Source: an uncultured Bacteroidota bacterium
Lineage (GTDB): Bacteria; Bacteroidota; Bacteroidia; Flavobacteriales; Flavobacteriaceae
NCBI GenBank assembly: GCA_902604715.1
Contig: CACLAD010000001.1
Location: 62,001 to 126,000, forward strand
Length of the DNA: 64,000 nt
Direction: 5' to 3'
Shown here: piece by piece, positions 7,982 through 11,236 of the stretch
How positions within the stretch are numbered: the first letter of the stretch is position 1
Layout: every line of letters begins with the position of its first letter
The notes under the pieces: generated by a model
What the model was told of the DNA's origin: nothing
Database searches by the model: none
Seen by the model: only the letters and a program-made list of their open reading frames with translations
Position numbers and translations under genes: made by a program

Positions 7982-8887
7982 ATGAAATGGATTCATGCAA
8001 TTAGTGATTTCAAAGACTACCTTAAAATTGAAAGAGGTTTGAGTGAAAACTCAGTCTCTAGTTATGAAAATGATCTTAAAAAGTTAAAGTTATTCCTAAA
8101 CAAAAATTTAAAAGAAATAAGCCCCCTAGATGTTAAAGCTGATCATATAAAAGAATTTGTTTACTGCATTTCCAAAAAAGTTAAAGCAAATTCACAATCA
8201 AGAATAATTTCTGGGATTAGGAGTTTTTATGATTATTTATTATTTGAAAAATTAATTGATACTAATCCATTATCAAATATTGAGTTACCTAAATTACAGA
8301 GAAAACTTCCGAGTACACTTTCGCTTGATGAGATAAATCTAATGATTAAGAATATTGATAAGACAAAAAAAGAATCGGAAAGAAATATAGCTATAATTGA
8401 AACTTTATATGGATGTGGATTAAGGGTTAGCGAACTTATAGACTTGAAAATTTCCGACTTATTTTTTAGCGAAGATTTCATTAAAGTTACAGGAAAAGGA
8501 AATAAGCAAAGGTTGGTTCCTGTGAGTCATATTAATAAAAGATGTATTAACGACTATTTGTTGAATTCAAGGTCAAAAATAAAAATAGCTGCAAAATACT
8601 CAGATATTCTTTTTTTAAATAGAAATGGATATAAGTTAACCCGGGCAATGATTTTTACAATTGTTAAAAATCTTTCCAAAAAATCAGAGATTAAGAAGAT
8701 TATATCTCCTCATACATTTAGACATTCTTTTGCTACTCATCTTCTGGAGAATGGAGCTGATTTAAAAACTATTCAACAGTTATTGGGTCATGAAAGTATA
8801 ACTACTACAGAAATCTACATGCATTTAGACAATAAAACTTTGGTTAATGTAATGAATAAATTTCACCCTCGGTCAAAAACTACTTAG
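7982..8887 (+). CDS. xerD: Tyrosine recombinase XerC/XerD family
   Basis: Site-specific recombinase of 301 residues. This length and its conserved place beside aroQ suggest the chromosomal enzyme that resolves dimers at dif rather than a phage integrase. An N-terminal SAM-like DNA-binding domain (about 1-90) precedes the catalytic domain. Arg148 (GLRVSEL), His244 and Arg247 ([12 protein letters not shown]), His270 (LLGHESI) and the nucleophile Tyr279 (EIYMHL) are all present. Its 3' end overlaps the convergent rny end by eight bases. XerC and XerD cannot be told apart by eye. It is the only tyrosine recombinase in the window and lies 31 kb from the mnmE islet. Confidence 0.9.
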
Positions 8888-10451
8888 CAATATTAACAGC
8901 GCGAGTTTCCCTAATTACAGTGACTTTAACTTGACCTGGGTATGTCATATCGGTTTGGATCTTTTGAGAAATCTGGAATGACAAATTTGATGCATCATCA
9001 TCATTAATCTTTTCACTTTCCACCATAACCCTTAATTCACGACCAGCTTGAATGGCATAAGCTTTCTCAACACCATTAAAATCTAGTGCAATCTCCTCAA
9101 GATTTTTTAATCTCTCTATATATGAATCCAAAACTTGTCTTCTTGCACCAGGACGAGCACCTGAAATTGCATCACAAACCTGAATTATTGGAGATATTAA
9201 ACAGTTCATCTCAATTTCATCGTGATGTGCACCAATAGCGTTACAGACATCTGGTTTTTCTCCAAATTTTTCTGCCCATTGCATCCCTAGTAATGCATGT
9301 GGAGTTTCTATATCCTTTTCAATGCTTGGTACTTTTCCCATATCGTGTAAAAGACCTGCTCTTTTTGCCATTTTAGGATCAATTCCCATTTCTGATGCCA
9401 TTATTGCACATAATTTTGCAACTTCTTTTGAATGCTGGAGTAAATTTTGCCCATAAGATGATCTGTATTTCATCCTACCAACGTATTTAATCAACTCTGG
9501 ATGCAGACTATTTATTCCTAAATCAATAACCGTTCTTTTTCCAACCTCAATAATTTCTTGATCAATTTCTTTTTTTGTTTTTTTTACAACCTCCTCAATT
9601 CTAGCAGGATGAATCCTACCATCTTTAACAAGTTTATGTAAAGATAATCTAGCTATTTCTCTTCTTATTGAATCAAAACAGGAAAGAATTATTGCTTCCG
9701 GTGTATCATCAACAATAATCTCAACACCTGTAGCCGACTCAAGTGCTCTAATATTTCTTCCCTCCCTTCCAATTATTCTTCCTTTAATATCATCAGACTC
9801 AATATTAAATACGGAAACTGTATTGTCAATAGTTTCCTCAGCACCAATTCTTTGAATTGTATTTAGAATAACCTTTTTTGCATTTTCCTTAACCGTTAGC
9901 TGAGCTTCCTCCATCTTTTCTTTTACGTAAACTAACGCATCATTTTCTGCATCCTTTTTAAGAGACTCTAATAGACTATCTTTTGCTTCTTTTTGTGAGA
10001 GACCAGAAATTAATTCTAGTTGTTTAATTTGATTTTTTCTGACCTTTTCAACCTCCTTTGTTTTGTTTTCCAATATGTTGATCTTATCCTGAACTTCAAG
10101 GTGTCTTTTTTCCAAATCCGAATTTAAGGCCTGATTTTTCTTTATTATACTATCTACTTGTGATTCTTTAGATGAAATTTCTCTTTCAATGGCCATTATT
10201 TTATCTTCTCTTGAAAAAATAATTTTTTCATGCTCAGACTTTAATTCCAGGAATTTTTCTTTTGCTTTAATAATTTTGTTGTTTTTAATGTTATCCCCTT
10301 TTTCATTTGCAGATTCGATAATTTTTTCTGCTTCTTTTTTAGCATCATTCAATAAACCAATAGACTTATTTTTATTAATAAACCGCATTATAATCATTCC
10401 AATAATAAATCCAATTAATACACAAATAAGTAAGGTTGTTGATATTTCCAT
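8880..10451 (-). CDS. rny: Ribonuclease Y
   Basis: Membrane-anchored endoribonuclease that initiates mRNA decay. It has 523 residues, the normal family length. One N-terminal transmembrane helix (about 5-25) is followed by a long charged coiled coil (about 30-190), a KH RNA-binding domain with the conserved [16 protein letters not shown] (about 217-232), and an HD phosphohydrolase domain whose metal-binding HD is in [12 protein letters not shown] (about 368-369). The C-terminal region carries the conserved ARPGARRQ segment. It follows zapA and the 6S RNA on the same strand, and its end overlaps xerD by eight bases. Confidence 0.96.
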
Positions 10452-10467
10452 TTTTTAAAATTTTTTT

Positions 10468-10632
10468 AAAAAAAACCTACAAAAGCTTTTTTATTTAAAC
10501 TCCAGTTAAACAGGATTAGGGCTACAAGACTGATCAAAAATCTGAATAAAATTTCAGCACGATTTAACAACCTAAACTCACCCTTTATAATTAATTAGCG
10601 TTGAGTTTACAAAAAAAACTAATGTAGGTAGT
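10468..10632 (-). ncRNA. ssrS: Probable 6S RNA (6S-Flavo type)
   Basis: The roughly 200-base spacer between zapA and rny encodes a long imperfect hairpin on the minus strand. ACCTACA at 10629-10623 pairs with TGTAGGT at 10481-10475. Inside this, a T-rich arm (10620-10611) faces an A-rich arm (10492-10486), and TAAACTC (10609-10603) pairs with GAGTTTA (10502-10496). The interior is an open central region with a small apical hairpin (CTGAA/TTCAG near 10556-10541). The 3' arm runs into eight U residues at 10475-10468. A long near-terminal stem with a central bubble, a length near 165 nt and a position immediately 3' of zapA match 6S RNA, which binds RNA polymerase holoenzyme. No covariance search was possible. 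Confidence 0.72.
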
Positions 10633-10654
10633 TTTATAATATTATGTAAAGAAC

Positions 10655-10942
10655 TTATTTCTTATCATCAAGAATATTTATCATCTTGGATAATCTATCC
10701 TCTATGTCATTAATAAATATTTCTTCATTTAAAGAACTTTGTTTCTTACTTGAAGCAATCTGAAGCGCACACATCGCTAGAGCATCTTGCTTATCACGAA
10801 CAGAATAATTCTGTTCAAATTTTTTTATCAGACTATTAATTTGCTGAGAAGCTATCCTTAAACCTTCCTCCTGAGATGGATCAATAGTTAAAGGATAAAT
10901 CCTGTTAGCAACTGACAACTTAATTTTGAGCTTATCACTCAT
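10655..10942 (-). CDS. zapA: Cell division protein ZapA
   Basis: Small cytoplasmic protein of 95 residues that binds FtsZ and cross-links its filaments at the division ring. It has the ZapA pattern: an N-terminal beta hairpin (KIKLSVANRIYPLTID) and EEGLRIASQQINSLIKKFEQ, then the helix SVRDKQDALAMCALQIAS, then a C-terminal helix for dimer/tetramer formation. It lies three bases after a coiled-coil gene on the same strand, and the probable 6S RNA gene follows directly. That zapA-ssrS order is also known from gamma-proteobacteria. Confidence 0.92.
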   Translation of the reverse strand: MSDKLKIKLSVANRIYPLTIDPSQEEGLRIASQQINSLIKKFEQNYSVRDKQDALAMCALQIASSKKQSSLNEEIFINDIEDRLSKMINILDDKK

Positions 10943-10945
10943 TTT

Positions 10946-11236
10946 CTAGTCTGATAATTGAGAAATACATGTATCTATTTCTCTAATAAGTGAGTCAATC
11001 TCACTTCTTGTTTCATTAATATTATTTTCACTACCTGAAATAGTATTTGCAATTTTTAAAGCCTTAAATCTTTCATCAAGTAATATAAATTCTGCATTCA
11101 ATTCATTCTTTTCATTAATCAGCATTTGATTCTTATCTAATAAATCATTTTTTTCATTCTTCAACTTTGAAAGCTCAGCTAAAATAGACTCAACTTTTTT
11201 TTCTAAATCAAACAACAAATCCTGAATTTTTTTCAC
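10946..11236 (-). CDS. Small coiled-coil protein upstream of zapA
   Basis: Predicted cytoplasmic protein of 96 residues, almost entirely heptad-like: residues 1-70 run in charged repeats (DLEKKVESILAELSKLKNEK, then QMLINEKNELNAEF), and a C-terminal helix contains EIDSLIREIDTCISQL. No enzyme motif is visible. Its place directly before zapA (three-base gap) suggests a division-ring role, perhaps as a partner similar in style to ZapB, but that is inference from position and coiled-coil character only. A TAnnTTTG promoter element lies 20 bases before the ATG. Confidence 0.8.
   Translation of the reverse strand: MKKIQDLLFDLEKKVESILAELSKLKNEKNDLLDKNQMLINEKNELNAEFILLDERFKALKIANTISGSENNINETRSEIDSLIREIDTCISQLSD

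Follow-up and report, generated by a model that had tools for sequence, protein, structure and literature searches.

The locus examined here raises the question of what fills the spacer between zapA and rny on the minus strand of a 64,000-nucleotide (nt) stretch of an uncultured flavobacterium (assembly GCA_902604715.1, contig CACLAD010000001.1, positions 62,001 to 126,000; hereafter, the window), and of how that spacer is transcribed. A first-pass annotation of the sequence had suggested a probable 6S RNA. Our analysis indicates that the minus-strand RNA at window positions 10468-10630 is very probably a 6S RNA (ssrS) of the 6S-Flavo family. The RNA is a plain and expected member of this known family; what may be novel is its transcription unit. 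The source organism is probably marine, a habitat taken from its closest named records.

Identification of the RNA

The whole window was scanned with cmscan, and 6S-Flavo (RF01685) was the sole match above any gathering score (10497-10606, 99 bits). A scan of positions 10440-10660 returned 6S-Flavo as the sole family at E ≤ 1, with 99 bits against a gathering score of 85 (E value 1.4e-18) over the full model (positions 1-108) on the minus strand, in agreement with the earlier suggestion. Two covariance models had been proposed as a check on this interval; the 6S-Flavo model gave the 99-bit match, and the classical 6S model gave none. By analogy with its family, the 6S RNA would bind RNA polymerase carrying the primary sigma factor, mimic an open promoter, and lower transcription during slow growth; copying of a short product RNA from the bubble by the polymerase would set the 6S RNA free.

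Secondary structure and covariation

The 165-nt stretch first proposed folds at -37.8 kcal/mol, compared with a mean of -27.1 kcal/mol in 200 dinucleotide shuffles (z = -3.05; 2 shuffles were equally good). The complementary ends described in the first-pass annotation were recovered (on the minus strand, ACCTACA spans 10628-10622 and TGTAGGT spans 10482-10476), and they lie within a 12-bp stem formed by 10618-10629 and 10475-10486. The outer stem proved to be long as described, but it has interruptions, being split by asymmetric loops into helices of 12, 7, and 4 bp. The open centre (10585-10598 facing 10513-10517) and the U8 tract (10475-10468) were also present.

Covariation was assessed in alignment A1, which comprised 39 representatives less than 90% similar to one another, with flanks (the window sequence and 38 relatives). 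RNAalifold predicted six helices with 38 bp, arranged as a closing stem, a central bubble, and an internal stem. In this consensus structure 97.9% of cells were paired, against 89.5% in shuffles, and changes on both sides were seen in 20 pairs, against 10.7 in shuffles; none of 500 shuffles reached any of five measures of the structure. When the partner strand was slid by 1 to 3 columns, pairing fell to 31-46%. This control is lenient, because the structure was derived from the same alignment, and the double changes carry more weight. The Rfam model, which spans 10497-10606, includes neither the covarying closing stem nor the U-tract. The features of the RNA, all on the minus strand, are as follows.

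10468..10630, minus strand: 6S RNA, presumed mature form of about 160 nt, from the first base of the closing stem to the end of the U-tract (RF01685 and the longer model R1, see below)
10618..10629 with 10475..10486, minus strand: helix 1, the closing stem, 12 bp; 8 of 12 pairs double-changed among the 39 sequences
10603..10609 with 10496..10502, minus strand: helix 2, UAAACUC/GAGUUUA; 98.2% paired, 1 of 7 pairs double-changed
10599..10602 with 10509..10512, minus strand: helix 3, 4 pairs; no double change
10580..10584 with 10518..10522, minus strand: helix 4; 3 of 5 pairs double-changed
10568..10573 with 10527..10532, minus strand: helix 5; 5 of 6 pairs double-changed
10554..10557 with 10542..10545, minus strand: helix 6; 3 of 4 pairs double-changed
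10585..10598, minus strand: 5' side of the central bubble, presumed template side for product RNA; unpaired in the consensus structure
10511..10518, minus strand: UAAUCCUG, covering the bubble's 3' side and resembling the -7 box TAnnTTTG; putative role
10534..10537, minus strand: UUGA, possible -33 mimic, 19 nt upstream of the bubble motif; putative role
10468..10475, minus strand: U8 tract, terminator-like; a T-run of at least 5 in 38 of 39 sequences

Helix 3 has little covariation support and rests on near-invariance. The sequence GAGUUUA is present twice (10502-10496 and 10579-10573, minus strand), and either copy could pair with the UAAACUC strand of helix 2 (10603-10609); a switch acting on product-RNA synthesis is possible.

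Distribution of the RNA

We searched Flavobacteriaceae genomes that were at least 85% complete, together with the window's own genome. RF01685 gave one match in each of the 149 genomes (own genome included), 137 of them over the cut-off. It matched 31 of 40 mixed relatives and none of 14 control genomes, which included one Bacteroides. A longer covariance model of 165 positions, R1, was built from alignment A2, consisting of 33 of the 39 A1 sequences (those with long inserts were excluded). On the window's own genome, whose sequence is among the sources of R1, it scored 143.5 bits (G000:C1:72471-72630, corresponding to window 10471-10630). At E ≤ 0.001, R1 matched 75 of the order's 118 genomes. 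The closing stem yields a longer model that reaches the RNA in three genomes (G031, G034, and G037) in which RF01685 found nothing. The matches of RF01685 in all 149 genomes, the covarying structure, and the R1 matches across the order exclude the outcome, raised in the first-pass annotation, that the zapA and rny ends alone are conserved in relatives.

In 148 genomes of the phylum, R1 gave 17 matches, all within Flavobacteriales. Since R1 was silent outside this order, we turned to the classical 6S model (RF00013) and to the zapA-rny spacer to examine other orders. At E ≤ 1e-3, RF00013 had matches in 13 of 118 phylum genomes, of which one was over the cut-off and 12 were below it. All 13 matches have rny downstream, and the upstream open reading frame (ORF) was ZapA by Pfam in the four loci, out of the 13, that were submitted. 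Because the RF00013 loci share these surroundings, 6S-Flavo occupies the place that classical 6S holds in relatives. In a profile search, a ZapA-like ORF lay upstream of rny at all 30 phylum loci analyzed (L282-L311, nine of which share genomes with RF00013 matches); the zapA-rny spacer measured 209-452 nt in 29 of them and 104 nt in L305. Bacteroidia outside the order were mixed (nine loci, L312-L320): the spacer was 261 nt in one, 6-115 nt in six, and 669 nt in one, and zapA was not found at one of the nine.

Nine spacers of 209-263 nt in one other family of the phylum (L283, L286, L288, L290, L292, L293, L296, L299, and L301) share recurring blocks (CCGCACTGCC-like, AGAACTA, and CGGCGTG-like) and look like 6S RNAs. 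No R1 or RF00013 match was listed for the genomes of these nine loci.

Genomic context

The genes surrounding the RNA in the window are listed below. On either side of the RNA, zapA ends at 10655 and rny starts at 10451.

10655..10942, minus strand: zapA (PF05164, 58.5 bits)
10946..11236, minus strand: zapB-like gene (PF06005, 25.4 bits, under the Pfam cut-off of 31.5)
8880..10451, minus strand: rny, encoding RNase Y (PF12072, 106.8 bits; PF01966, 61 bits)
10642..10654, minus strand: boxA-like element GTTCTTTACATAA, directly 3' of the zapA stop codon
11256..11263, minus strand: TAAATTTG, a sigma-A -7 box of consensus sequence ahead of the zapB-like gene; presumed promoter of the operon

Conservation of this arrangement was examined in 139 loci, comprising a window-genus set of 23 (21 genus genomes plus L077 and L078), 85 loci from other Flavobacteriaceae, and 31 order-level loci. 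Fifty-five were chosen through the RNA (among L001-L060), 53 through zapA, and 31 through R1. From an initial 140 loci, L127 was dropped (no nhmmer match to the core), followed by rows identical around the RNA, leaving 113. Loci L026-L030 were removed from the 113, and three genomes returned as L188, L190, and L197; L029, in which no boxA was seen, and L030, in which one was seen, did not return. The 31 order-level loci were taken from the 75 R1 matches (11 from outside the family and 20 spread over genera). Loci L031-L060 are the best-scoring RF01685 matches and not a random draw.

Among the 60 loci chosen by the RNA alone, tblastn found a zapA relative at 59, the exception being L029. zapA was present at all 139 loci of the final set, with a gap of 12-40 nt (median, 25) from its stop codon to the RNA. 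This count is partly built in, because 53 of the loci were chosen by zapA; it was present at 31 of 31 order-level loci, none of which was chosen by that gene. rny lay downstream at all 31 order-level loci, at 84 of the 85 from other Flavobacteriaceae, and at 13 of the 23 in the window-genus set. In 10 of the 21 window-genus genomes, rny is gone or fragmentary at the locus and zapA and 6S are kept (L002, L003, L008, L010, L014, L015, L016, L018, L019, and L024; although the genomes are incomplete, they do cover this locus). The pieces of rny that remain, residues 502-523, 457-523, and 15-38, suggest that the deletions occurred separately.

A boxA-like element precedes the RNA

Between the zapA stop codon and the RNA, the sense strand carries GTTCTTTA, which matches the core of boxA, the Nus-factor element of ribosomal RNA (rRNA) leaders. 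Of the 139 loci, 116 carry the core GTTC[AT]T[TA] in the 50 nt preceding the RNA, whereas dinucleotide shuffles gave a mean of about 3.9; it occurred on the opposite strand in 2 of 139 and in 12 of 1,112 upstream windows. Because this 7-base core was picked after the sequences had been seen, the shuffle and coding-window controls carry more weight than the choice of core. By set, it was present in 12 of 23 window-genus, 81 of 85 other Flavobacteriaceae, and 23 of 31 order-level loci; after merging at 80% spacer identity, the corresponding counts were 1 of 7, 21 of 25, and 19 of 24 clusters. By origin of the loci, it was present in 43 of 55 chosen by the RNA, 50 of 53 chosen by zapA, and the same 23 of 31 at the order level. 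The perfect gamma-proteobacterial consensus GYTCTTTAANA (PMC5725501) was present within 50 nt before the RNA in 48 of 139 loci, compared with 0 of 1,112 upstream windows and none on the opposite strand. Family f5 (L194-L197) lacks boxA and has a GGGAA...TTCCC-like repeat around the zapA stop codon in its place.

Among 19 rRNA leaders from 10 genomes, 16 have the same core in the last 200 nt ahead of 16S (shuffle mean, 0.85); the leaders L148, L149, and L155 carry deviating boxA forms, and several leaders have TATATTTGC-type promoters upstream of the core. In the window's genome, there are five exact occurrences of GTTCWTTRAMATA: one in the rRNA leader (G000:C17 889-901), one in the 16S-23S spacer (G000:C17 2864-2876), one between transfer RNA (tRNA) genes, one ahead of a pair of tRNAs, and one in an RNase E/G gene leader. 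With one base missing, the window's 6S copy falls outside this group of five. A match to the NusB family was found in the window's genome (PF01029, E value 5.8e-22) and in 24 of 26 genomes searched. Beyond the class, genome G313 has the order zapA, GTTCTTTAAAATA, classical 6S over the cut-off, and rny.

We also tried a matrix of 13 positions, derived from ten boxA copies in rRNA leaders, and set it aside as too strict, because the 6S copies differ from those copies by one base in spacing. It placed 71 of 139 loci above the 99% shuffle level, a level exceeded by 0 of 139 loci when the opposite strand was scored and by 3 of 834 control windows; the window copy, one base short, fails this full motif (2.7 bits against a 99% shuffle level of 9.3). 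The motif alone is unspecific in the 4-Mb genomes G151 and G176, since all 13 non-rRNA matches examined there fall within open frames, on one strand or the other, that are 90 codons or longer.

Transcription of the 6S RNA

The sigma-A -7 box is TAnnTTTG (PMC7366714, PMC9723704). In 135 of 139 loci this sequence lies 250-420 nt ahead of zapA; just 4 of 139 have it in the last 60 nt preceding the RNA. In the window, where the zapB-like gene was identified, the box (TAAATTTG at 11263-11256) stands immediately ahead of that gene. Near-matches with at most one mismatch just before the RNA numbered 24 of 139, against a shuffle mean of 47.6. A sigma-A consensus promoter directly before the RNA, with 4 of 139 loci and near-matches below shuffle level, was rejected.

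These observations suggest a model in which the 6S RNA would have no sigma-A promoter of its own and would be made as the untranslated 3' tail of a zapB-zapA transcript. By analogy with rRNA operons, boxA would load a Nus complex that spares the tail from premature termination, and the 6S RNA would then be cut out of a zapB-zapA-6S precursor. On balance we lean toward this combination of promoterless tail, boxA/Nus protection, and processing, which is drawn from sequence comparison. If the element works as a boxA, 6S RNA would be tied to Nus-dependent stable-RNA transcription, and its function would explain how an untranslated RNA can arise from a protein operon when the gap of 12-40 nt contains no promoter of sigma-A consensus type. 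If the model is true, an RNA that silences the polymerase would be made by the machinery that sustains rRNA synthesis.

The central bubble

The 5' side of the bubble (10585..10598) is what we take, from general knowledge of 6S RNAs, to be the template for product RNA. On the 3' side, the aligned sequences carry UAAACYUG or a near variant, and UUGA lies at the same distance of 19 nt upstream of this motif in all 39 sequences. More tentatively, and with slightly more doubt than belief, we propose that in Flavobacteriales, and perhaps ancestrally in Bacteroidota, 6S RNA would belong to Nus/boxA stable-RNA operons as a promoterless, processed zapB-zapA tail whose bubble motif UAAACYUG would mimic TAnnTTTG and not a sigma-70 -10 box.

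Alternative explanations

Several observations weigh against the interpretation developed above. Classical 6S (RF00013) was unlisted at E ≤ 1 in 10440-10660 and gave no match at E ≤ 1e-3 genome-wide under stricter filters, and R1 had no match in 43 of the order's 118 genomes. Of the 139 loci, 23 lack the boxA core (11 of 23 window-genus, 4 of 85, and 8 of 31); the 11 window-genus losses represent 9 of the 21 genus genomes plus L077 and L078, and a single one of that set's seven clusters at 80% spacer identity retains the core. Even with the consensus -7 box absent, an unusual promoter before the RNA is still conceivable. The bubble motif fits TAnnTTTG imperfectly, with 1-2 mismatches over 6 positions in 38 of 39 sequences and 3 in one, and 2-41 8-mers per RNA, the bubble motif included, match TAnnTTTG at least equally. 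Because other 8-mers match as well, promoter mimicry is a proposal from position and not from statistics.

The RNA might be a 6S RNA whose own promoter overlaps the zapA end and includes the GTTCTTT block, which would then not be a boxA. Escherichia coli ssrS has promoters of its own; it begins 41 nt after zapA, with no GYTCTTW in 1.6 kb, and in the Flavobacteriaceae sets the block starts 21-28 nt before the RNA in 93 of 95 matches. This spacing widens to 13-37 nt in other families of the order. The same block also occurs in the 16S-23S spacer and in rRNA leaders, where it follows the TATATTTG-type promoter if one is visible, and TAnnTTTG near-matches before the RNA are rarer than in shuffles. 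We regard an own promoter as unlikely. A further reading makes the region an rny 5' leader that folds into an autoregulatory element for RNase Y; boxA would then act on rny, much as it might on the RNase E/G gene. The presence of rny downstream (all 31 order-level loci and 84 of the 85 from other Flavobacteriaceae) would fit, as would the boxA core that all 30 Flavobacteriaceae rng loci have in the 330 nt ahead of the gene (shuffle mean, 3.6). This is very improbable given the 6S-Flavo match, a U-tract in which the RNA terminates ahead of rny, retention of the RNA in all 21 window-genus genomes, 10 of which have lost or fragmented rny, and the uncoupling of boxA and rny in the 23 window-genus loci (both in 7, boxA only in 5, rny only in 6, and neither in 5). 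That the structure is a chance inverted repeat or a simple zapA terminator can in practice be dismissed: the region is AT-rich and its fold energy alone lies just 3 standard deviations below shuffles, but the family match and conservation across the order speak for a 6S RNA, and the covariation refutes this reading.

Comparison with known 6S RNAs

The 6S-Flavo family was described by Weinberg et al. 2010 (PMC2864571). The window RNA agrees with RF01685 in its full-length match over the gathering score, its single copy, and its phylum, Bacteroidetes; it differs in that the Rfam model holds 108 core positions and lacks the 12-bp closing stem and U-tract seen here.

The 6S RNA of E. coli is built from a closing stem, a central bubble, and an internal stem, and the window RNA shares this arrangement with classical 6S. 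Both also lie directly behind zapA, as in the E. coli K-12 annotation. In beta- and gamma-proteobacteria, classical 6S is placed directly 3' of zapA (PMC7641849). Differences are that the window's genome gave no RF00013 match at E ≤ 1e-3, that the downstream gene is rny here and fau/EVE there, that the zapA-6S gap has no sigma-A consensus here, and that the window locus has a boxA-like element whereas the 1.6-kb E. coli 6S region has no GYTCTTW match. The boxA-like element itself shares the perfect gamma-proteobacterial consensus in the 48 loci noted above, and the window's own copy, GTTCTTTACATAA, is one base short.

For Bacteroides thetaiotaomicron, 6S expression and evidence for two classes of product RNA have been reported (PMC7366714); the two organisms belong to the same phylum. 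6S has also been detected in Flavobacterium psychrophilum (PMC7366714, PMC9723704). Among the literature matches listed, titles and abstract openings held no report of a boxA preceding a 6S RNA, and the link between 6S RNA and an rRNA-type boxA may be new.

boxA-like elements elsewhere

In the window's genome, a boxA-like motif lies within a tRNA cluster and another between a TAnnTTTG sequence and a tRNA pair (L218 and L219). A 96-codon open frame on the antisense strand overlaps the GTTCWTTRAMATA copy in the tRNA cluster; we take this frame to be due to chance.

The 30 Flavobacteriaceae RNase E/G loci examined (L252-L281), drawn from 41 found, all carry the boxA core within 330 nt before the gene start; as controls, the core was seen in 4 on the opposite strand and in 2 within the first 330 nt of the gene. 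The copy in the window's genome lies at G000:C41:4346-4358, the gene family being named from relatives. For two RNase E/G genes tested, the identity was supported by NCBIfam and Pfam, and in both loci read (L220 and L237) a gene for an HU-type DNA-binding protein (PF00216) lies upstream of the RNase E/G gene.
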